A stretch of DNA of 58,851 nucleotides from Lachnospiraceae bacterium (GTDB lineage Bacteria > Bacillota > Clostridia > Lachnospirales > Lachnospiraceae): assembly GCA_015057435.1 (NCBI GenBank), contig SVEJ01000015.1, positions 1-58,851 of the forward strand, given 5' to 3'. Under the pieces are notes generated by a model, which saw only the letters and a program-made list of their open reading frames with translations, had not been told where the DNA came from and did no database searches. Shown piece by piece: positions 4,416-58,309 of this stretch. Each line of letters begins with the position of its first letter. The stretch's first letter is position 1. Made by a program: the position numbers and the translations under genes.

Positions 4416-4534
4416 TATATGTGTAATTATTTCTAAAAATTAGAAGAATGCAACGATTTCTTTACGAGAGTTGTATTATTTGCAGAGGGCATATGATGCA
4501 TATGAAAATTAAAATGAGGAGAGGTATATGAGAA

Positions 4535-5284
4535 ATGAAAGGAAATAATATGTTTAAGTTGCTATGTCTCTTGCAGGTTTGGGTGGTTATAGCATTGGTT
4601 CGATATTGTGTAGTGTTAGGAGAACAAAGCAAATTGTTTCAAGATGTAGATGAATTTTTACCGGCAAAAGCTACTTGTATTGAATCAGACAGAAGAAGAT
4701 ACGGTTCTTATAGAAATCGACGTACGAGATATAATAATACATACCGCTATACAGTCAATGAACAGACATATACGGTGACATATTATAGTGAGAGATGGAG
4801 GGGTAGTGATAAGGTTTTATATTATAATCCTACTAATCCTAACGTTGTTTCAAAGTATAGTAGTTATGCAGATGCTGCAACCGGTAATGCGATATGGATT
4901 ATATTTGTGGTAATCGGGCAAAGTGTGATTATATTCTTTGCGGTAAAAGCCACGCGCGGACAGAATGCATATCAAGAACAATCAGTAGGCGTTGTGTTGG
5001 GGGATGATTTTCAATTCGATATGAATAATGACGCGAGTCCCTACACAGACAGAATCTCTTCTTCACAGAAAGAGGAGACGCAAGAAAAAGAAACAATAGC
5101 GTTTCCGGGATGGAATTCGGAAGGAAAAGTGGAATCAATACCATTTCGTCCAAGTAAAACGATAACGGAATCGAATCAAACAGACGATGTAGAGACAATT
5201 GCTTTTACCAGAAGTACAAAACCTAAGGATGATTTCGTTTTGTATACAGAAGAGGAATACAAGCAGATGCAAAAAGAGAAATAA
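4535..5284 (+). CDS. Two-TM membrane protein, DUF3592-like
   Basis: A 249-residue protein of unknown function. One hydrophobic segment lies near residues 7-26 (LLCLLQVWVVIALVRY) and another near 119-140 (IWIIFVVIGQSVIIFFAV). Between them is an Arg/Tyr-rich domain (YRYTVNEQTYTVTYYSERW) with the layout of DUF3592 proteins, where a small beta domain sits between two helices. The C-terminal 110 residues are polar and probably cytoplasmic. AGGAGAGG (4517-4524) is 10 nt before this ATG; an alternative ATG at 4550 has its own AAAGGA, and a 6-codon ORF (MRNERK) starts at 4528 between them. The 148-residue gene at 12587 has the same architecture. Monocistronic by flanking terminators. Confidence 0.75.
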   Translation: MKGNNMFKLLCLLQVWVVIALVRYCVVLGEQSKLFQDVDEFLPAKATCIESDRRRYGSYRNRRTRYNNTYRYTVNEQTYTVTYYSERWRGSDKVLYYNPTNPNVVSKYSSYADAATGNAIWIIFVVIGQSVIIFFAVKATRGQNAYQEQSVGVVLGDDFQFDMNNDASPYTDRISSSQKEETQEKETIAFPGWNSEGKVESIPFRPSKTITESNQTDDVETIAFTRSTKPKDDFVLYTEEEYKQMQKEK

Positions 5285-31611: not shown

Positions 31612-32001
31612 GTGTTTTGGAAGCAGAAGAATAGTCAATCTAAGAGACAGCAAAAAGAAAAACGTAAGCAAGTATATGAACGTGTTTTGCAATTGCATAA
31701 ACATGCAGCGTTTTTGTTTTATGTAGATGATGTGATTTTGGAATTGTATCATGGTCAAGAATGTGTGAAATTGGTAGGAACTGTAGCAATCGGTAACGCA
31801 ACTTTGGATCAATCGTATGAATTATATAGTTGTACTGGGATAAAAAAGGCTGACATTGAAGTTGAGGAATTCTATGTTGGTGCGGATGCAGTCAAGATAC
31901 TTATGGCAGGGGATAAAACGGTTGCGATTTATCCGAGGCAAAGCGAAGTATCATATAAAGCAGGAGATGTATTATGTAAACTGCATGTTTGTGGAGAATA
32001 G
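31612..32001 (+). CDS. Hypothetical protein, possible small beta-barrel
   Basis: A 129-residue soluble protein started at GTG 31612, with GAGGTG 5 nt upstream; a TTG at 31582 would extend it by 10 residues without a site. The N-terminus is very basic (KQKNSQSKRQQKEKRKQ). The C-terminal half (VGTVAIGNATLDQSYELYSC, IKKADIEVEEF, MAGDKTVAIYPRQ, YKAGDVLCKL) has the rhythm of the domain-2 barrel of translation factors, but this resemblance is weak and by eye. It is divergent from the amidase and 51 bp before ung. Confidence 0.6.
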   Translation: MFWKQKNSQSKRQQKEKRKQVYERVLQLHKHAAFLFYVDDVILELYHGQECVKLVGTVAIGNATLDQSYELYSCTGIKKADIEVEEFYVGADAVKILMAGDKTVAIYPRQSEVSYKAGDVLCKLHVCGE

Positions 32002-32052
32002 AATTAATTTTAATAATGAGCAGATAGAATTATGTAAACAAAGGAGAAGAAA

Positions 32053-32730
32053 ATGCCACCAATTACAAATGATTGGGCACAGTACTTACAGCCCGAATAT
32101 AAAAAAGAATATTATAAAAATTTATATAAAAAGGTAAATGAAGAATATGGAAGTGGAGCAACGATTTTTCCGCCGTCTGATGATATATTCAATGCATTTC
32201 ATCTGACACCGCTTCAAGAGGTAAAGTGTGTGATTATTGGTCAGGACCCATATCACAATGTCAATCAGGCACATGGCCTTTGCTTTAGTGTAAGACCGGA
32301 GGTTGAGATTCCACCATCCTTGGTTAACATTTATAAAGAGTTACAGACAGACTTAGGGTGCGAGATACCGAATAATGGATATCTGGTAAAATGGGCGAAG
32401 CAAGGTGTTTTGTTACTTAACAGTGTGTTGACTGTGCGTGCACATCAGGCAAATTCTCATCAGGGGATTGGATGGGAGCAGTTTACAGATGCAGTGATGG
32501 ATATTTTGAATGAACAGAATCGACCAATCGTGTTTTTGCTTTGGGGAAAACCTGCGCAGAACAAAGCAGCTCGCCTTAATAATCCGAATCATCTGATTTT
32601 GAAGGCACCGCATCCAAGTCCGTTGTCAGCATATAGAGGATTCTTTGGATGCAAACATTTTAGTCAAGCCAATACTTTTTTGGAGGAGCATGGATTATCG
32701 CCGATTGATTGGCAGATTGAAAATGTCTGA
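32053..32730 (+). CDS. ung: Uracil-DNA glycosylase, family 1
   Basis: Removes uracil from DNA to start base-excision repair. 225 residues, normal length. Motif GQDPYHNVNQAHGLCFSV holds the water-activating Asp; further motifs are LLLNSVLTVR (uracil pocket), FLLWGKPAQNKA and the DNA-intercalating HPSPLSAYRGFFGCKHFS. AAAGGAGAAG precedes the ATG. Confidence 0.97.
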   Translation: MPPITNDWAQYLQPEYKKEYYKNLYKKVNEEYGSGATIFPPSDDIFNAFHLTPLQEVKCVIIGQDPYHNVNQAHGLCFSVRPEVEIPPSLVNIYKELQTDLGCEIPNNGYLVKWAKQGVLLLNSVLTVRAHQANSHQGIGWEQFTDAVMDILNEQNRPIVFLLWGKPAQNKAARLNNPNHLILKAPHPSPLSAYRGFFGCKHFSQANTFLEEHGLSPIDWQIENV

Positions 32731-32757
32731 TATGAATTATACACAGGAGGAACCAAC

Positions 32758-33345
32758 ATGAGTTGGGAGATTACATTTTTTACAACAAGTATTCTGTTAG
32801 GAGTTGGACTTGCGATGGATGCATTTTCTGTATCCTTGGCAAATGGGTTAAATGAACCAAAGATGCGGACGAATCGTATACTTACAATTGCCGGCATGTT
32901 TGCTTTTTTTCAGGCATTGATGCCCCTCATTGGATGGTTTTGCGTGCACAATCTTGCAAAGGCATTCACGGTTTTTCAAGGAATGATTCCGTGGATTGCA
33001 TTGGCACTTCTTTCTGTGATAGGTGGTAAGATGCTTTATGAGGGATTGCATCCGGAAGAAGAGCAAGTAGAGGAACAACATACACTTACTTTCAAGATGT
33101 TAGTGTTACAGGGAATTGCAACATCGATTGATGCATTATCGGTTGGTTTTACGATTTCTGAATATGATTGGTTGCATGCAACCGTGTGTGCATTGCTCAT
33201 TGCAGCAGTGACCTTTGTGATTTGTATTGCAGGTGTTATAATCGGCAAAAAGTTTGGTACGAAACTTGCGAATAAAGCATCTATCTTAGGTGGTGTAATC
33301 TTGATTGCAATCGGGATTGAGATATTTGTGACAGGTGTTTTTTGA
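32758..33345 (+). CDS. mntP: Manganese efflux pump MntP
   Basis: A 195-residue six-helix membrane exporter of Mn2+. It is an internal duplication with paired acidic motifs: GLAMDAFSVSLANGL in the first half and ATSIDALSVGFTISEYDW in the second. The central cytoplasmic loop is rich in Glu (LHPEEEQVEEQHT). AGGAGGAA precedes the ATG 27 bp after ung. The Mn riboswitch typical of this gene is not in front of it but just downstream (33409). Confidence 0.93.
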   Translation: MSWEITFFTTSILLGVGLAMDAFSVSLANGLNEPKMRTNRILTIAGMFAFFQALMPLIGWFCVHNLAKAFTVFQGMIPWIALALLSVIGGKMLYEGLHPEEEQVEEQHTLTFKMLVLQGIATSIDALSVGFTISEYDWLHATVCALLIAAVTFVICIAGVIIGKKFGTKLANKASILGGVILIAIGIEIFVTGVF

Positions 33346-33374
33346 AAAACATTTAAAAAGTTGTTAAATTGTTC

Positions 33375-33404
33375 TTGACAAATGATGGAAGATATTGTTA
33401 TTAT
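33375..33404 (+). promoter_or_regulatory. Promoter of the Mn-riboswitch transcript
   Basis: TTGACA (33375-33380) and TATTAT (33399-33404) with 18-bp spacing; the start would fall at the riboswitch 5' end. Confidence 0.6.
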
Positions 33405-33408
33405 AAGT

Positions 33409-33497
33409 TCAACAAAATCCTGTGAGGGAGTAGCAGGCGTTCTAAGAACGTGACAAGTCAACATCCTGGTCTTTGGCCTGGCTTGTATTAAATTGCG
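33409..33497 (+). ncRNA. yybP-ykoY manganese riboswitch aptamer
   Basis: The conserved core is plainly visible: GAGGGAGTAGCAGGC (first Mn-binding loop), a short hairpin GTTCTAAGAAC, ACAAGTCAACATCC, and CTTTGGCCTGGCTTG (second loop side). In this class Mn2+ holds the two internal loops together and prevents the following terminator from forming. The arrangement here is on the plus strand downstream of mntP and upstream of an ABC transporter. Confidence 0.92.
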
Positions 33498-33538
33498 AGA
33501 CTCATGTGTATCGTTAGTGTTATACATGGAGTCTTTTT
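33498..33538 (+). terminator. Riboswitch expression-platform terminator
   Basis: AGACTCATGTGTA (33498-33510) pairs with TATACATGGAGTCT (33521-33534) and is followed by five T. Confidence 0.85.
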
Positions 33539-33554
33539 ATATTGATGTAAGAAT

Positions 33555-33596
33555 GAATCCTAAGTATGACAAAGCGATTATACTTAGGATTCTTTT
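33555..33596 (+). terminator. Second terminator before the ABC genes
   Basis: GAATCCTAAGTAT (33555-33567) pairs perfectly with ATACTTAGGATTC (33580-33592), then TTTTAATTT. Only 30 bp separate it from the next ATG, so no separate promoter fits between. Confidence 0.85.
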
Positions 33597-33626
33597 AATT
33601 TACTCAAACCACAGGAGGAGAAAAAT

Positions 33627-34325
33627 ATGTTTTTAGAAATCAGTAACATCAAAAAAAGCTTTGGAGAAGGCGAAAGCAAAACAGAAGTATTGAAGGGAAT
33701 TGACGTAGGAATTGAGAAGGGCGAGATTTGTGTATTACTTGGTCCTTCCGGTTCGGGAAAATCAACCTTGTTAAACATTATCGGTGGAATTGATCAGGCT
33801 GATAGCGGCTACATTTCCATCAATGGAGAAAAGACTGCAGATATGAATGAAAAGACGCTGACATTATATCGCAGAAAGCATCTTGGCTACATCTTTCAGA
33901 TGTACAATCTAATCCCCAATTTGAATATCAAAGAAAATATTGAAGTAGGCGCATACTTGAGTGATAATCCACTGGATGTAGATGAATTGTTGCATACATT
34001 AGGTCTTTATGAGCATCGTCACAAATTGCCAAATCAGTTATCCGGCGGACAACAGCAAAGAACAGCAATTGGTCGTGCGATTGTGAAGAATCCGGATATT
34101 CTTCTCTGTGATGAGCCGACAGGTGCACTTGATTATAACACCTCAAAAGAGATTCTTAAATTGATTGAAGAAGTGAATCAAAAGTATGGTAATACAGTAG
34201 TTATGGTTACACACAACGATGCAATCAAAGATATGGCAGATCGTGTTATTAAGCTTCGTGATGGTATGATACGTAAGAATTATGTAAATGAAACAAAGAC
34301 ACCGGCTGTAGAGCTTGACTGGTAA
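33627..34325 (+). CDS. ABC transporter ATP-binding protein (MacB/LolD type)
   Basis: A 232-residue ATPase of the exporter and lipoprotein-releasing class. Walker A GPSGSGKST, Q-loop FQMYNLIPNLNIKEN, signature [15 protein letters not shown], Walker B ILLCDEPTGALD and H-loop VMVTHND are all intact. AGGAGGAG precedes the ATG. It partners the FtsX-like permease 13 bp downstream. Transcription appears to pass through the Mn riboswitch and two terminators, which suggests Mn-dependent expression. Confidence 0.95.
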   Translation: MFLEISNIKKSFGEGESKTEVLKGIDVGIEKGEICVLLGPSGSGKSTLLNIIGGIDQADSGYISINGEKTADMNEKTLTLYRRKHLGYIFQMYNLIPNLNIKENIEVGAYLSDNPLDVDELLHTLGLYEHRHKLPNQLSGGQQQRTAIGRAIVKNPDILLCDEPTGALDYNTSKEILKLIEEVNQKYGNTVVMVTHNDAIKDMADRVIKLRDGMIRKNYVNETKTPAVELDW

Positions 34326-34338
34326 GGGGGTGGACGAG

Positions 34339-36588
34339 ATGAGAAATCCACTAATCAAACGTTTGCCGCGAGAGTTGAAAAGTGAGTTTGGAAAGTATCT
34401 GGTAATCTTTCTGTTTTTTATAATGGTAATAGGATTTGTTTCAGGTTTCCTTGTAACGTCTGCCAGTCTGCAGTCAGAGTTTCATGAGACATTTGAAACA
34501 TACAACATAGAGCATGGCAATTTTGAATTGTTTTATGAAGCAGATGAAGCGCTCATTGAAACACTTGAAAAAGAGGATGTAACACTCTATGAAAATTTCT
34601 ACATAGAAAAGGACACAAAAGATTTTGAAAGTACCTTGCGCATGTTTAAAAAGCGTGGGGATGTGAATCGGGAATGCGTGCTTGAGGGAGAACTACCTAC
34701 AAAGCAGGGAGAAATCGCGATTGACAGAGTCTATGCGCAAAATAATGGTGTAGCAATCGGTGATACCTTAAAGGTTGGTTTTAAGGAATTAAAAGTAACG
34801 GGTTATGTTGCATTGCCGGATTACAGCACCATGCTTTCTAGTCCTTCAGACATGATGTTTGATGCGAATATGTTTGGTGTTGGTATTGTGACAGAGGAAA
34901 CCTTTGATAACTTCGGCAAAGGTGGTTTTCATTATAGCTATTCTTGGAAATACGACGAAGAACCAAAAGATGATGCCGAAGCCAAGAACTTATCAGAAGA
35001 GTTTTTAGAAATGTTAGCAGAACATGCTATGGTGGTAGAATATATTCCGGAATATGCAAATATGGCAATCCATTTTGCAGGTAACGATTTGGGAAATGAC
35101 TATATGGTTATAATGGTATTTCTTTATATTGTTGTGGCAATTATTGCATTTATCTTTGCGATTACTACCAATAATACGATTGCAAAGGAAGCTACTGTGA
35201 TTGGAACTCTTAGAGCATCCGGATATTCTAAAGGTGAGTTGCTGCGTCACTACATGACGATGCCGGTGCTTGTTACTTTGTTTTCTGCTTTGATTGGAAA
35301 TGTGTTAGGGTACACTTATTTTAGAACGGTAGCAGAGGATATGTATTTGGCAAGCTATAGCTTAACCCGATATGATGTATTGTGGAATGCGGATGCATTT
35401 GTTAAGACGACGGTAGTACCGGTTATCTTAATGGTTGTGATTAACTATGTAATACTGGCATACAAATTAAGATTGTCGCCGCTTAGATTCATTCGTCGCG
35501 ATTTGAGCACGAGACAGAAGAAAAAGGCAATTCGCTTGAACACGAAGATTGGAATTATGCAGCGTTTTCGAATGCGTATTATTTTCCAAAACATGCCGAA
35601 TTATATTATGATTTTTGTTGGAATCTTTTTCGCAAATATCATTTTGCTACTTGGAATTGCATTTCCTTCGTTGCTTCACAAATATGAAGATGATATTACA
35701 GATAATATGATTTGTGATTATCAATATATTTTGAAAGCACCGGCAGATACCGAAGTGGAAGATGCGGAACAGTACTGTGCGGGAAGTCTTACCTATGTGG
35801 CAGAAAGTGGTCAGGAAGAGGATGCTACGCTGTTTGGTATTATTCCTGATAGTCAGTATATTGATATTGAGTTGGAAAATGACAATGTATACATTTCTGA
35901 TGCGTTTTCCGAGAAATATCATATAGCGGAAGGTGATACCATCGAATTGAAGGAATTTGGCGGAAAGACGTATCGTTTCCATGTTGACGGTATTTATCAT
36001 TATCCATCAAGTCTTGCGGTATTTATGTCCAAGGAGTATTTCAATAAAACCTTTGATTATGAAGAGGATTATTATAGTGGGTATTTCTCTAATACAGAGA
36101 TTGATGATATTGATGAGATGTATATCGCAACACAGATTACAGTCAGTGACATGACAAAGACATCAAGACAATTAATTGATTCGATGGGATCTATGATGGA
36201 TATGTTGTTTTTGTTTGGCGTGGTAATGTTTATGTTGATTATCTATCTGCTTTCTAAGATTATTATTGAGAAGAATGCACAGTCCATCTCTATGACAAAG
36301 ATTCTTGGTTATACGAATGGTGAGATTGGCGGATTGTATATTATGTCAACTACGATTGTTGTGATTTTATCAATGCTTGTGACTTTACCGCTGGTAGATA
36401 AATTAATGGAATATGCATGTAAGATTATGTTGTCAACATTTTCCGGATGGTTCCCATACTATGTACCATCCTATGCATATATTGCCGTGGTGGCAGCGGG
36501 AATTCTTTCTTATGCAGTGATTGCATTTATTCAATTTAGAAAAGTAAAGAAAGTCCCGATGGATATGGCACTGAAGAATGTAGAGTAA
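34339..36588 (+). CDS. ABC transporter permease, FtsX/MacB family
   Basis: A 749-residue membrane protein with one N-terminal helix (about 20-42, FGKYLVIFLFFIMVIGFVSG), a large extracytoplasmic domain (45-255), three helices with an FtsX core (about 258-390, IVVAIIAFIFAITTNNTIAK, VIGTLRASGYSKGELL), a further helix at 425-450, a second external domain (460-620), and three C-terminal helices (625-740, SMTKILGYTNGEIGGLYIMS). Two FtsX cores in one chain suggest it works with an ATPase dimer as a mechanotransmission-type exporter. Substrate unknown. The ATG at 34339 is preferred over an in-frame start at 34315 inside the ATPase gene. Confidence 0.9.
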   Translation: MRNPLIKRLPRELKSEFGKYLVIFLFFIMVIGFVSGFLVTSASLQSEFHETFETYNIEHGNFELFYEADEALIETLEKEDVTLYENFYIEKDTKDFESTLRMFKKRGDVNRECVLEGELPTKQGEIAIDRVYAQNNGVAIGDTLKVGFKELKVTGYVALPDYSTMLSSPSDMMFDANMFGVGIVTEETFDNFGKGGFHYSYSWKYDEEPKDDAEAKNLSEEFLEMLAEHAMVVEYIPEYANMAIHFAGNDLGNDYMVIMVFLYIVVAIIAFIFAITTNNTIAKEATVIGTLRASGYSKGELLRHYMTMPVLVTLFSALIGNVLGYTYFRTVAEDMYLASYSLTRYDVLWNADAFVKTTVVPVILMVVINYVILAYKLRLSPLRFIRRDLSTRQKKKAIRLNTKIGIMQRFRMRIIFQNMPNYIMIFVGIFFANIILLLGIAFPSLLHKYEDDITDNMICDYQYILKAPADTEVEDAEQYCAGSLTYVAESGQEEDATLFGIIPDSQYIDIELENDNVYISDAFSEKYHIAEGDTIELKEFGGKTYRFHVDGIYHYPSSLAVFMSKEYFNKTFDYEEDYYSGYFSNTEIDDIDEMYIATQITVSDMTKTSRQLIDSMGSMMDMLFLFGVVMFMLIIYLLSKIIIEKNAQSISMTKILGYTNGEIGGLYIMSTTIVVILSMLVTLPLVDKLMEYACKIMLSTFSGWFPYYVPSYAYIAVVAAGILSYAVIAFIQFRKVKKVPMDMALKNVE

Positions 36589-36605
36589 TGGATATTGTAG
36601 GTAAA

Positions 36606-36638
36606 TGGAAGAGTCTTTTAAAAGATTCTTCCATTTTT
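36606..36638 (+). terminator. Intrinsic terminator of the ABC operon
   Basis: TGGAAGA-TCTTTT pairs with AAAAGA-TCTTCCA with single mismatches, followed by TTTTT. Confidence 0.8.
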
Positions 36639-36639
36639 A

Positions 36640-36668
36640 TTGATGTGTTTTATGGAAAGGGATATAAT
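36640..36668 (+). promoter_or_regulatory. Promoter of the 36709 gene
   Basis: TTGATG (36640-36645) and TATAAT (36663-36668) with 17-bp spacing. Confidence 0.6.
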
Positions 36669-36708
36669 AAAGCATAGGTGTTAGTAATTATTGGAAAAGA
36701 GGTTTTCT

Positions 36709-38979
36709 ATGGAGTTAGTAAAGTTTCAACGCGGACAAACAATTGCAAAGCGAAACGATATGGTGAAACATTGGTATCTGGTGCAGGAAGGAAGCATAAC
36801 ACAGAAATTTGAGTTTTCAGAAGTGTTGCTTTCTAAGAATTCTTTGATTGGACCTTCTGAGCGCGATATGTATCTTTGTGATTATATCGCAGCAGAGGAT
36901 ACTGTGCTGGCTGAATTTACCTGTGATGGTGCCAAGGACCTCAAGAAGCTACTGTCCGGTCAGGAAAAGATACGTGGAATCTTTTTGCGGGCAGCAGTAG
37001 AACAGCGTCAGCAATTATTGAAACTATATGCAGATTTAGATAATAAAACAAGACAGTTTCATATGTTTGTAGAAACAGTATTCAACGATTACAAAGCGCT
37101 TTGTTTGAAATATAAGGCAGAACAGCTGAACTTTCTTCGTATGGAATTGTTTCAACCGTTGGAAATGCAACACAAAGCTGAAGAGTGGGAAATTGATAAT
37201 AGTGCCAGTATTGCGAAAAACTATTTGCAGGACTATCTTCATTTGATGGAAAAGGATGATAGTATGACAGTTGGCGTCATTATGGAAGCATCTTTTCAGA
37301 TGCATCGTTTTGTACAGGGTATTTGGAAAATGGAGAATTACCTCGCGTATAACAAAGATATTCTGTTAAACGATATGCAAAGCGATTTGTTTCAGTTATT
37401 CTTTGACTTAGCTATTAAGATGAAATTAAAGAAATTTGATATCGAACCTGCAGCAAAAGAGATTCGGTTGATTGCAAAGGTGGCAGAGAAACTTTCTGTG
37501 TATAATCCAAGAACAATTATACGGAGAACAAAGGAATTTGAAGAGTACGATTTTGAGAATGTCGGCAAGGAGGCTATGCCTGACAATCATGTAGTTCGAA
37601 AAGAAATCAATATTCTTACGGAAGATTGTCTGGGACATATTTTGGAATTTGCGGGATATAATGATGACGAAGTTTTACACATTTGCAATATGATTCGTGA
37701 ATATCAGAGTTTACCGGATATGTCATCTATGGATAAAGAAGTCTATGAACTGCGCAAAAAGATTGCAACGAAGTATTATGAGATCTATTACAAGGTATTT
37801 ATCCGTGTTGTAAAAGATGAGAGTCTGTTGACGCCTGTATTAGAGATGTTCTTGAATTTTGGTTTTATGGATTTGTCCCTTGTGGGTGAAGAGCATGCAA
37901 AACAGCTTTATGATGCGGTGGCACATATGGACATCTGTCACTCGGACAATATATATACGATATATGAGTGGTTGAAAGCAATCTACCATGGCAAAAAAGA
38001 AACCTCCAAGAATGATTTGGAAATGGACTACCAGGTTTATATAGCCGATTTGTTGAAGTCAGGAAAACTGAATCAGCAGCAGTATGAAGCTTTGCAAGGT
38101 AATCGGGAGAAAATGGTAGAATTCGAAATTAAGAATATGTTTGTCTCTGCCAATAAGATGACCTATGGAAAAATCACCACATTCTGCCCTATATTATGTA
38201 AACAAGATTTGCTTCATTCGGTTGATAGAATGTTAGTGACGGCAGAACGATTGGAAATGGCACTGAATGAGATTCGTAAGGTGGATTATTCTATCTATTA
38301 TCGCGAGGTGATGTTTTCTGATGTGGAGCATGGAATTAACTGCGAGAGGATTATGAAGGAAGTGTTGCCGGATATCATTCTGATGCCGAATGCAGGAAGC
38401 AGAACTGCTATGTGGCAGGAGATTTCCGGTTTGAGAAGCAATACACCCGGGCGTTTTATGTTCCCGATTCTTACCGCTATGGATTTGGAGGATATGATGT
38501 TAGAAGTATGCGGACGGTTCCGATGGGAGATGTGTCGCAGATTGGAAGGTGTTCGTTGGAATGATGTGAGGGAGCATTCTTTGACGGCAGAATATTGTAC
38601 GTATCTGCAATTTTATCGAAAGAATCGTGACCTGTCAGTGGAGGCAAAGGAAAAGGTCAAGAATGCTTTGGTTCGAGCAAAGAATAATTTCAGGGAAGTA
38701 TTTGTCAGAGATTATGTTAACTGGATGAAGTTTGAGTCTAAGGGAAGTTTCCGTTTGAATAAGGTGACAAGAGCAATCCTTATTGTACATTGTCCGTTTG
38801 TAAAAGCGATTCGTAGTGAGCTTGCGTCGAATCCGCTCTATCAGAATGCAATTTTGCAATCCGAAACGGAAGTTGCAAAGAAATTACAGCGCTTCGCAGG
38901 CGTGTATGATAAGTATGAAAAAGCAGGTGGTATAATCACTGAGGAATTAAGAGATAATCTGATGTTTTATCAGATGTAA
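36709..38979 (+). CDS. Large protein with N-terminal cNMP-binding-like domain
   Basis: A 756-residue soluble protein of unknown function. Residues 1-105 look like a cyclic nucleotide-binding beta-roll (LVKFQRGQTIAKRNDMVKHW, YLVQEGSITQKFEFSEVLL, LIGPSERDMYLCDYIAAEDT). No DNA-binding HTH follows; instead there are about 600 mostly helical residues without a recognised domain, including MPNAGSRTAMWQEISGLRS, and near the end FRLNKVTRAILIVHCPFV. The ATG at 36709 has AAGAGG 6 nt upstream; a TTG at 36691 is an alternative. The next gene, 15 bp downstream, is a histidine phosphatase, suggesting a signalling role, but this is speculation. Confidence 0.7.
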   Translation: MELVKFQRGQTIAKRNDMVKHWYLVQEGSITQKFEFSEVLLSKNSLIGPSERDMYLCDYIAAEDTVLAEFTCDGAKDLKKLLSGQEKIRGIFLRAAVEQRQQLLKLYADLDNKTRQFHMFVETVFNDYKALCLKYKAEQLNFLRMELFQPLEMQHKAEEWEIDNSASIAKNYLQDYLHLMEKDDSMTVGVIMEASFQMHRFVQGIWKMENYLAYNKDILLNDMQSDLFQLFFDLAIKMKLKKFDIEPAAKEIRLIAKVAEKLSVYNPRTIIRRTKEFEEYDFENVGKEAMPDNHVVRKEINILTEDCLGHILEFAGYNDDEVLHICNMIREYQSLPDMSSMDKEVYELRKKIATKYYEIYYKVFIRVVKDESLLTPVLEMFLNFGFMDLSLVGEEHAKQLYDAVAHMDICHSDNIYTIYEWLKAIYHGKKETSKNDLEMDYQVYIADLLKSGKLNQQQYEALQGNREKMVEFEIKNMFVSANKMTYGKITTFCPILCKQDLLHSVDRMLVTAERLEMALNEIRKVDYSIYYREVMFSDVEHGINCERIMKEVLPDIILMPNAGSRTAMWQEISGLRSNTPGRFMFPILTAMDLEDMMLEVCGRFRWEMCRRLEGVRWNDVREHSLTAEYCTYLQFYRKNRDLSVEAKEKVKNALVRAKNNFREVFVRDYVNWMKFESKGSFRLNKVTRAILIVHCPFVKAIRSELASNPLYQNAILQSETEVAKKLQRFAGVYDKYEKAGGIITEELRDNLMFYQM

Positions 38980-39678: not shown

Positions 39679-41577
39679 TTACTCGGACTTGACTTCTTTC
39701 CACAAATCGTTATACATGCGATCTGCGTCTTCGCCTAAGTAACGGAATGTCTCTAAGTGTTCATATTTTGATAAATCAGGAAATGCAATCTCGCTATTTC
39801 GGATTGCCTCATCCTCAATTAATGCACGACCCTCTACATTAGGAGTAGAGTAAGTAATATACTCAAAATTAATCAGTGCAATGTCCGGACGACAGAGGAA
39901 GTTGATAAATGCTTCGGCATTTTCCTTGTTCGGTGCATCTTTTAAAATACACCATGAATCAATCCATACATTGGTTCCTTCTTTTGGAATTACATATTCC
40001 AAATCAGGATTTTCGAGTTGCGTATAGATTGCTTCACCGGAGTAAATGACGCCGATTGCAGCTTCGTTTCCGATCATCTTATCGCGAACCTGATCTACGA
40101 CGTAAGCCTGTGTAAGTGGCTTTTGTGCAATCAAGTCGTTCTTTGCTTCTTCTAACTCCTCAGGATTCGTGGAATTCATGGAATATCCTAATCTTTTTAA
40201 AGATACCATAAATGCATCCCTTACAGAATCCTGCATCAAAATGTTGTCTTTATAACGTTCATCCCAAAGTACATCCCATGAGTCAATCGGTTCATCTACC
40301 ATAGTTTTATTATAGAGGATACCGACAGTTCCTACACAGTAAGGAACACTGTATTGGTTCTCAGGGTCGAATTCTTTGGATTGAATCATATAGTTTTCAT
40401 CGATATGTTTGATGTTTGGCACATTATCAAAATTAATCTTCGCTAACATGTCGTTATCTAACATTTTCTGAATCATATAGTCCGAAGGACATACAATGTC
40501 ATACTGTGTTGCACCACTGGCAACCTTCGGATACATAACCTCGTTCGTTTCGTACTCATCGTAGATAACTTCAATTCCTGTTTCTTCCGTAAACATTTCC
40601 AAAACAATCGGATCAATATATTCACCCCAGTTGTAGACAACAACCTGTTGCGTGGCACCGCTTTTTTGGTAGAGCTGAACGGAACCAATGATCAGTGCGA
40701 TAGCAGCCAACCCTGCAACAATGCGATTCATCCATCTCTTTGTACGAGGCTTTAAGAACGATTTTTTGACAATACCGTTTTTTAAATTCTCGCGTTCTTT
40801 TGCCAGTCGTTTTTCCTTCTGGGCAGGAGCGATGTTGACAATTAATAATAGAACAAACACTGTTACGAAAATGATTGTGCTAAGCGCATACATTTCCGGC
40901 TTGATTCCCTTTCGCACTTCACTGTATATCTTCGTGGAGAGGGTGTCGACACCTGCACCTTTTGTAAAGTGTGTAATAATGAAATCATCTAATGACATCG
41001 TAAATGCCATTAAGAATCCGGCAAGAACACCCGGCATAATCTCCGGCATAATCACCTTGAAAAATGCATAGATTGGAGAAGCTCCAAGGTCGAGTGCCGC
41101 TTCGTAGGTGTTTGGATTTAACTGTCTGAACTTTGGCATTACGTTTAATATTACATAAGGAATATTAAATGTAATATGGGCAAGGAGAATGGTTTCCATA
41201 CCAAACTTAAAACCAAAGCTGATAAAAAGCAACATAAGTGAGATACCTGTTACGATATCTGCATTTAACATTGGAATGTTATTCACTGCAAGCATTGCAT
41301 TACGGGTACGGCTCTTCATATTATAAAGTGCGATACAGGTAATGGTTCCGATAATTGTCGCAATTATGGAAGATACAAGTGCAACAAACAATGTATTATA
41401 AAGTGCCTGCATAATGGCTTCATTTTCGAATAATGCTGAGTACCACTGTGTGGTAAATCCTCCCCATTTTGCACGGGTCTTGCTCTTGTTAAATGATAAT
41501 ACAATCAAAGTTATAATCGGAGCATAGAGGAATACAAAAATGATTGCCACATAAAAGCGTTCAATAAATTTCTTCAT
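39679..41577 (-). CDS. potCD: PotC-PotD fusion: spermidine/putrescine permease plus binding protein
   Basis: A 632-residue fusion. Residues 1-265 are a PotC-type permease with six helices and the EAA loop EAALDLGASPIYAFFKVIMP (159-178). A basic linker and an extra helix (about 284-302, RIVAGLAAIALIIGSV) export the following domain. Residues 312-632 are a PotD-type periplasmic-fold binding protein tethered to the membrane (VVVYNWGEYIDPIVLEMFTE, YDIVCPSDYMIQKML, VPYCVGTVGILYNK, IGVIYSGEAIYTQLE). There is no lipobox because the permease supplies the anchor. Its start overlaps the potB stop by 1 bp. It imports polyamines with PotA and PotB. Confidence 0.94.
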   Translation of the reverse strand: MKKFIERFYVAIIFVFLYAPIITLIVLSFNKSKTRAKWGGFTTQWYSALFENEAIMQALYNTLFVALVSSIIATIIGTITCIALYNMKSRTRNAMLAVNNIPMLNADIVTGISLMLLFISFGFKFGMETILLAHITFNIPYVILNVMPKFRQLNPNTYEAALDLGASPIYAFFKVIMPEIMPGVLAGFLMAFTMSLDDFIITHFTKGAGVDTLSTKIYSEVRKGIKPEMYALSTIIFVTVFVLLLIVNIAPAQKEKRLAKERENLKNGIVKKSFLKPRTKRWMNRIVAGLAAIALIIGSVQLYQKSGATQQVVVYNWGEYIDPIVLEMFTEETGIEVIYDEYETNEVMYPKVASGATQYDIVCPSDYMIQKMLDNDMLAKINFDNVPNIKHIDENYMIQSKEFDPENQYSVPYCVGTVGILYNKTMVDEPIDSWDVLWDERYKDNILMQDSVRDAFMVSLKRLGYSMNSTNPEELEEAKNDLIAQKPLTQAYVVDQVRDKMIGNEAAIGVIYSGEAIYTQLENPDLEYVIPKEGTNVWIDSWCILKDAPNKENAEAFINFLCRPDIALINFEYITYSTPNVEGRALIEDEAIRNSEIAFPDLSKYEHLETFRYLGEDADRMYNDLWKEVKSE

Positions 41578-57593: not shown

Positions 57594-57668
57594 CGGGGTG
57601 TGGCTCAGTTTGGCTAGAGCGCTTGATTTGGGATCAAGAGGTCGCAGGTTCGAATCCTGTCACCCCGA
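57594..57668 (+). tRNA. tRNA-Pro(TGG)
   Basis: Acceptor CGGGGTG/CACCCCG, anticodon stem CTTGA/TCAAG with loop TTTGGGA (anticodon TGG), T-loop GGTTCGAATCC. First of seven tRNAs; no encoded CCA. Confidence 0.95.
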
Positions 57669-57686
57669 CTTTTCAACTTATTACAT

Positions 57687-57757
57687 GCGGGTGTAGTTCA
57701 ATGGTAGAACACTAGCCTTCCAAGCTAGATACGTGGGTTCGATTCCCATCACCCGCT
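57687..57757 (+). tRNA. tRNA-Gly(TCC)
   Basis: Acceptor GCGGGTG/CACCCGC, anticodon stem CTAGC/GCTAG with loop CTTCCAA (anticodon TCC). Confidence 0.95.
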
Positions 57758-57780
57758 TTTGTTACGCAAAGACGTAACGT

Positions 57781-57854
<74 letters not shown>

Positions 57855-57889
57855 TTTTCTTCATGAAGAGTACTTTGTGAGGACTATAC

Positions 57890-57964
57890 GGTGGGTATAG
57901 CGCAGTTGGTTAGCGCGCCAGATTGTGGCTCTGGAGGCCAAGGGTTCGAATCCCTTTATCCACC
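57890..57964 (+). tRNA. tRNA-His(GTG)
   Basis: Acceptor GTGGGTA/TATCCAC plus the extra G-1 at 57890 opposite C73, as histidyl-tRNA synthetase requires. Anticodon stem CCAGA/TCTGG with loop TTGTGGC (anticodon GTG). Confidence 0.95.
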
Positions 57965-57989
57965 TTCATTGCCTAGATGCAGTGAGTAC

Positions 57990-58061
57990 TGGGGTATCGC
58001 CAAGCGGTAAGGCACAGGACTTTGACTCCTGCATTCGTTGGTTCGAATCCAACTACCCCAG
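57990..58061 (+). tRNA. tRNA-Gln(TTG)
   Basis: Acceptor TGGGGTA/TACCCCA, anticodon stem CAGGA/TCCTG with loop CTTTGAC (anticodon TTG). Confidence 0.95.
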
Positions 58062-58091
58062 CTAATTTTATAAAGGCAATGTAATCAATAT

Positions 58092-58164
58092 GGAGCACTA
58101 GCTCAGTCGGTAGAGCACCTGACTTTTAATCAGGTTGTCGGGGGTTCGAATCCCCCGTGCTTCA
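58092..58164 (+). tRNA. tRNA-Lys(TTT)
   Basis: Acceptor GGAGCAC/GTGCTTC with a G-U pair, anticodon stem CCTGA/TCAGG with loop CTTTTAA (anticodon TTT). Confidence 0.95.
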
Positions 58165-58229
58165 CTAGAAGCGTAAGCTTCTTTTTAATTTTATAAGGTA
58201 ACTACAGACGTTAAGTCTGATAGATACAT

Positions 58230-58309
58230 GCGGATGTGGCGGAATTGGCAGACGCACTAGACTTAGGATCTAGCGGGAGACCGTGCAGGTTCAACTCCTG
58301 TCATCCGCA
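58230..58309 (+). tRNA. tRNA-Leu(TAG)
   Basis: An 80-nt class II tRNA. Acceptor GCGGATG/CATCCGC, anticodon stem CTAGA/TCTAG with loop CTTAGGA (anticodon TAG), short variable arm. Its last 13 nt are duplicated at 58440-58452. Confidence 0.94.

Follow-up and report, generated by a model that had tools for sequence, protein, structure and literature searches.

The locus described here raises the question of which genes are controlled by an Mn2+ riboswitch that lies 3′ of the manganese efflux pump gene mntP and is itself followed by two successive terminators, and of how one aptamer could act on both of them. The window, by which we mean the whole stretch of 58,851 nt analysed from a Lachnospiraceae bacterium, contains mntP (32758..33345, + strand; PF02659, E 3e-41), then an aptamer, a terminator, a second terminator and an ABC transporter operon, and this layout, proposed in an initial annotation, is confirmed in the sequence. 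The gene ung ends 27 bp 5′ of mntP. No riboswitch belonging to mntP itself was found, and the genome (92.8% complete) contains one match to the covariance model R1 described below, at the window site.

All elements of the leader lie on the + strand. A putative promoter of the riboswitch-ABC transcript (33375..33404; TTGACA-18-TATTAT with a TG preceding the −10) matches at 11/12 positions and is the top match across 32000-37500 on both strands; the whole window has five matches of at least 11/12 on the + strand and four on the − strand, and the same hexamers are aligned in G003 and G004, two genomes of the same genus. The 89-nt aptamer of yybP-ykoY type (33418..33506) overlaps hairpin 1, read as terminator 1 (33497..33538, arms b and c), the 5′ arm of which contains the 3′ strand of P1.1, a helix of the aptamer; the stem of hairpin 1 spans 33497-33535 and its U-run 33534-33538, at −14.7 kcal/mol. 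Hairpin 2, read as terminator 2 (33555..33600 with its T-run, arms d and e), has a stem at 33555-33592 with TTTTAATT, at −18.0 kcal/mol. Our listing of promoter-like and terminator-like features includes hairpin 2 and omits hairpin 1. Folding and covariation further predict an antiterminator (33519..33572), in which c (33519-33535) would pair with d (33555-33569). The RNA 33409-33600 folds better than 200/200 of its shuffles (z −3.9), and 33409-33540 alone gives a weaker signal (z −1.7, 11/200 shuffles). From the end of hairpin 2 it is 34 bp to the ATG of the ABC ATPase gene (33627..34325), with a ribosome-binding site, CAGGAGGAG, recognised from the sequence at 33612..33620; the gene for a 749-aa permease follows (34339..36588), and a terminator-like hairpin (36603..36636) lies 3′ of the operon. 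That no promoter fits after hairpin 2 had been claimed before, and indeed no promoter-like match on the + strand is listed with a start within 33376-33939.

Beyond the operon, a 762-aa protein is encoded at 36691-38979, with no match in Pfam (E 0.001) or in NCBIfam (E 1e-10). A 632-aa ORF on the − strand (39679-41577) resembles, by eye, a fusion of a spermidine/putrescine permease with a solute-binding protein, and seven tRNA genes are clustered on the + strand at 57594-58309. The window also holds a Clostridiales-1 RNA (RF01699, 92.7 bits, 1782-1990), a family that to our knowledge has no known function, and a ribosomal protein L20 leader (RF00558, 28057-28178) that scores barely above cut-off.

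The initial annotation called the yybP-ykoY core unmistakable. By eye this stands, but Rfam does not bear it out: RF00080 gives the window aptamer 14-16 bits (at best 16.0 bits, E 0.015, on 311 bases) against a gathering cut-off of 45, and a search of the window with Rfam leaves the aptamer without a gathering-level match. The model R1 was made from the window copy and four more that a DNA search located in the same genus, in an alignment that is 98.4% paired with double changes at 7 pairs versus 2.1 when shuffled. It has matches in 8/26 genomes of the genus (E 0.01) and in 143/299 genomes of the family (E 0.001), whereas the current Rfam model is blind to these riboswitches, with none of the 299 over the cut-off and six reaching E 0.001. 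R1 recovers the mntP leader of Escherichia coli K-12 (28.2 bits, E 1.2e-6, 140 nt before the start codon) and does not recover the E. coli alx leader; neither of these two leaders has an Rfam match at gathering level. The RF00080 cut-off excludes all 299 family genomes as well as the two E. coli leaders and is therefore a poor test of the class, and Rfam alone was rejected as such a test.

We classified the genes behind 89 sites, made up of the best-scoring part of the family R1 matches and nine matches of the genus, by taking as the target the first ORF for which BLASTP matched a reference protein. This first recognised gene was MntP at 55 sites, a P-type ATPase at 11, an ABC ATPase at 9, Na_Ca_ex at 8 and GDT1 at 2, with one site each for a glycosyltransferase and for an HlyD-type gene followed by an ABC ATPase, and two sites without a match (L030, which is MgtE by Pfam, and L065, close to a contig end). 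Genes of cation exporter type (MntP, P-type ATPase, Na_Ca_ex, GDT1) stand at 76/89 sites, and the window's own target is an ABC ATPase. The four-way-junction fold of P1.1, P1.2, P2, P3.1 and P3.2, with L1 GGGAGUA and L3 ACA, is found; in the 89-site alignment, which was fitted to the model, its 26 pairs are 97.0% paired with 432 double-change cells versus 118.9 when shuffled, and the motifs GGGAGTA (L1) and TCAACA are kept at 88/89 and 85/89 sites. In the window, P1.1 would be formed by 33421-33426 with 33501-33506, and L1 (GGAGTA) lies at 33427-33432. An invariant sensing adenosine in L3 is described as A41 in Lactococcus lactis and A48 in Xanthomonas (PMC6754395, cited here, like the other papers below, for the available part of its text), and by comparison its counterpart is A33463, in an L3 that reads ACAUCCU versus ACA48UACU in Xanthomonas. 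The comparison supports the class originally proposed: 33418-33506 is a riboswitch aptamer of yybP-ykoY type that most likely senses Mn2+, and Mn2+ would be the ligand of the window copy too.

Some single sites may be mentioned in passing. L087 (G014, 4523-4610) lies before a UDP-glycosyltransferase-like gene, an unusual target, with an ORF on its far side that by eye resembles a MerR-type regulator plus methyltransferase. L030 (G048, 1501-1588) has a two-hairpin leader before an MgtE-type divalent cation transporter identified by Pfam, and L061 (G265, another genus, 498-595) precedes a gene for an HlyD-type membrane-fusion protein and then an ABC ATPase gene.

The ATPase of the window is BceA/MacB/LolD-like by its domain and PDB sequence matches, the nearest PDB sequences being BceA (7tcg, E 2e-58) and MacB. 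The permease contains two FtsX stretches and, by hydropathy, about eight hydrophobic segments and two large hydrophilic stretches, and an ATPase of MacB/LolD type is combined with an FtsX permease as in a MacB-type system. In the MacB exporter, the ATPase and permease are fused, with a MacB periplasmic core and an HlyD partner. This classical architecture is not what we find, as the ATPase and permease are separate genes and MacB_PCD scores 20.3 bits, under its cut-off of 27; the gene next to the operon has no Pfam match. The likeness to MacB, BceAB and LolCDE lies in the type of ATPase and in the FtsX stretches of the permease, whereas the 749-aa permease itself differs from them, as neither PDB (single-sequence search, E 0.1) nor NCBIfam (E 1e-10) gives a match to it.

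The initial annotation had raised the order mntP-riboswitch-ABC as one that might be conserved. In the DNA examined it is confined to the window, G003 and G004, all of one genus, and G003 has a second copy of the riboswitch before an mntP paralogue. What is widespread is the riboswitch-ABC arrangement without mntP. Outside the genus the riboswitch precedes ABC genes in G156, G069, G150, G141, G191 and G089, the transporters of the last two being distant relatives only, and it does so in the further genomes G213, G145, G245, G214, G029 and G318. Among 80 named homologous ABC loci, which are the best 80 of 567 relatives, R1 matches upstream of 31, at distances of 98-332 nt from the start of the ATPase gene, a proportion that should not be extended to the family at large. 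In the DNA examined, which at L198 comprised 120 nt upstream of the riboswitch, an mntP match was found at one of these 31 linked loci, L182 (the same as G004). At a permease identity of at least 55.6%, 27/30 loci within the same best 80 of 567 are linked to the riboswitch, and for the unlinked L194, L196 and L197 the upstream 500 nt contain no L1 motif. We considered and rejected the idea that the whole ABC family belongs to the Mn regulon: at 28 same-genus loci, for some of which, such as L113, L117 and L121, the sequence examined 5′ of the ATPase gene was scant or absent, R1 matches at the window, G003 and G004 only, and the other homologues are less alike, with longer permease matches at 41-47% and single stretches at up to 51%.

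In the permease tree, the largest all-linked group containing the window is 27/27 linked (SH-aLRT 82), with an inner group of 21/21 (SH-aLRT 99), and the next larger group is 29/31; a second group is 5/5 linked (SH-aLRT 100), and elsewhere linked and unlinked rows are intermixed. The starred branches force at least five state changes in the first tree and at least eight in the second, both being quick trees with SH-aLRT support only, from the second of which nine loci short of upstream DNA were excluded. The ABC transporter is most likely an unrecognised part of the Mn response, a proposal of the initial annotation that the comparison of genomes supports, and its mRNA would be expected to respond to Mn2+. 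By eye, the leaders L150, L162, L183, L223, L253 and L255 carry a promoter-like stretch and a palindrome between the terminators and the ABC genes, which suggests a repressor as a second input. A plausible history would be that an ABC transporter with a promoter of its own gained the riboswitch, and that the line of the window then lost that promoter.

We consider it highly probable that the Mn2+ riboswitch, transcribed from its own promoter, controls the two-gene ABC operon via two serial terminators. At low Mn2+, arm c would capture arm b, which contains the 3′ strand of P1.1, and the resulting hairpin 1 would terminate transcription; polymerases that escape would reach hairpin 2 (d:e) and meet a second termination. 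At high Mn2+, the aptamer would keep b in P1.1 so that hairpin 1 is blocked, and the freed c could pair with d before e is transcribed, which would block hairpin 2 and allow the ABC genes to be read. A single binding event would thereby open both gates, with low leakage when they are shut. Mn2+ is described to stabilise P1.1 in L. lactis and Xanthomonas members, freeing no strand for the terminator (PMC11087558, PMC6754395). In the available text of one review, Mn2+ riboswitches are called 'OFF' switches (PMC11477304), a label that counts against the ON reading and conflicts with the L. lactis work. We deduce the c:d step from covariation and from folding, and the terms termination, readthrough and kinetics, as we apply them to the window leader, describe how it should behave; the transporter would have a role in Mn2+ tolerance.

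By an automatic criterion, applied in two rounds with slightly different position limits for hairpin 2, this hairpin is present in 41/44 distinct ABC leaders (9 classified sites, 6 further family genomes and 29 new named loci); L186, L150 and L167 lack it by this criterion, and L167 has a second hairpin by eye. Many MntP leaders have hairpin 1 only. Arms c and d can be strikingly complementary, with ten pairs and zero mismatches in L041, GCCATAC with GTATGGC in L205, and GCTGTAC with GTACAGC in L187 and L189. Over 58 unique leaders the energy of the c:d duplex is −9.91 when matched versus −7.89 when permuted (z −6.6; p 5e-5, the lowest value that 20000 permutations can give), in a test where the arms are defined by folding and the permutation leaves some leader relatedness in place. 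The control pairings are flat in the same leaders (c:e p 0.41, b:d p 0.91, c with reversed d p 0.34). The signal is z −5.3 in the 36 ABC leaders, for which alone the reversed-d control gives p 0.075, and z −3.1 in the 22 others. The set of 58 was obtained from 63 by merging repeated c/d pairs; L084 (a duplicate of L182), L191 (a duplicate of L052) and L025 (which has no hairpin 1) were left out, and the doubtful two-hairpin leaders L032, L083 and L065 were kept. In a 25-row test, c:d gives p 0.00175 without L032, L083, L065, L084 and L085, and b:e gives p 0.003, a signal that is expected because b resembles d. Sequence comparison supports both hairpins as well as the covariation of b:c, c:d and d:e.

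In the window, with P1.1 held, the segment from c to d reaches −14.9 kcal/mol in a fold that contains 12 c:d pairs and in which the hairpin-1 U-run is paired as well, and 0/200 shuffles are as low (z −3.6); over the 58 leaders the mean z is −2.4, and the minimum-energy fold contains at least five c:d pairs in 53/58. Taken alone, the window's c:d duplex has an energy of −7.6, no better than its c with the d of all leaders (mean −7.6), the stability of the segment being due to extra pairs in the spacer. The segments of G003 and G004 are weaker (z −0.3 and −1.2), and the coupling may therefore be decaying in the window's clade, in which hairpin 1 itself carries a good U-run. As hairpin 2 (−18.0 kcal/mol) exceeds the c:d hairpin (−14.9 kcal/mol) in stability, the coupling would have to be kinetic. 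Hairpin 1 has a poor U-run in L086, which precedes mntP, and in L087, which precedes the glycosyltransferase gene, so that hairpin 2 should carry the regulation there.

The same energies could be read in another way, namely that hairpin 2 is an ordinary terminator or attenuator uncoupled from the riboswitch, with Mn2+ opening hairpin 1 only and hairpin 2 either fixing readthrough at a low level or masking the switch. The greater stability of hairpin 2, the weak c:d pairing of G003 and G004 and the precedent of the c-di-GMP riboswitch Bc1 (PMC11218506) speak for this, but it would leave unaccounted for the c:d covariation in 58 leaders with flat controls, the c:d pairs predicted in 53 of them and the poor U-runs of L086 and L087, and we regard it as unlikely. 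We give still less credence to hairpin 2 as an independent second switch for another signal, be it a protein, an antisense RNA or a ribosome, which would make the leader an AND gate. A second input may exist in the six ABC leaders in which a promoter-like and a palindromic, operator-like stretch was seen by eye, yet no such operator-like stretch was seen in the window leader, a search of 33330-33640 with Rfam left other families far under their cut-offs, and the arms of hairpin 2 are accounted for by pairing with hairpin 1. The suggestion in the initial annotation that hairpin 2 might be a further switch has consequently given way to strand exchange with hairpin 1 through c:d, with hairpin 2 more probably completing the one switch than forming another, while the claim that both hairpins control the ABC genes is upheld by the comparison of leaders.

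The ABC genes might instead be transcribed mainly from another promoter, with the riboswitch serving as the 3′ end of the mntP mRNA or surviving as a relic. The promoter-like stretches that by eye follow the terminators in six relatives, and the position of mntP just 5′ in three genomes, would fit such an arrangement. Set against these are the strong promoter of the riboswitch itself, aligned in G003 and G004, the empty interval 33376-33939 in the list of promoter-like matches, and the leader being kept in 30/31 named riboswitch-ABC loci (among the best 80 of 567) that have no mntP match in the DNA examined, and we find this account very improbable. Nor do we see much chance that the ABC-linked aptamers have drifted to a different ligand. 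The Rfam score is low and some targets are unusual (ABC, one glycosyltransferase, one MgtE), but the L1 and TCAACA motifs are nearly invariant over the 89 sites, the L3 of the window resembles that of Xanthomonas (PMC6754395), and the core is common to ABC and mntP copies, of which G003 has one each. Control of the ABC operon by an Mn2+ riboswitch through two coupled terminators is thus the reading that we prefer.

The linkage places a MacB/FtsX-type ABC transporter among the genes that Mn2+ riboswitches precede across a large group of bacteria from gut and rumen, and it makes the role of an uncharacterised transporter testable. We put forward, tentatively and as something we would not yet bet on, that clostridia of the gut and rumen possess an unrecognised Mn2+-inducible ABC system of the MacB/FtsX superfamily against excess manganese, governed by a series gate of duplicated hairpins in which the first terminator is the anti-antiterminator for the second. 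A link between an Mn2+ riboswitch and a MacB/FtsX ABC transporter was not found in the available text of the literature searched, the two founding papers of 2015 lying outside its scope.

Among known systems, the transcriptional yoaB riboswitch of L. lactis is similar in that the 3′ strand of P1.1 is alternatively part of a terminator hairpin (PMC11087558, PMC6754395); one terminator hairpin is described there in the text available (PMC11087558), whereas the window has two in series, linked by a predicted antiterminator, with an ABC operon downstream. The mntP riboswitch of E. coli shares the aptamer that R1 recovers but is described as translational (PMC11647493), while that of the window is read as transcriptional. 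A second terminator is also present in a tandem pair of Na+ and c-di-AMP riboswitches (PMC9337991). The closest parallel for one aptamer with two terminators is the c-di-GMP-I riboswitch Bc1 of Bacillus thuringiensis, in which two Rho-independent terminators lie 28 bp apart and T2 stays folded, so that the effect of the ligand is masked (PMC11218506). In Bc1, as described, T2 is not opened by the ligand and the second terminator defeats the switch, whereas covariation in the leaders studied here argues for a coupling of T2 to hairpin 1, and the window offers a naturally evolved leader whose two terminators both appear to be under the control of a single aptamer.
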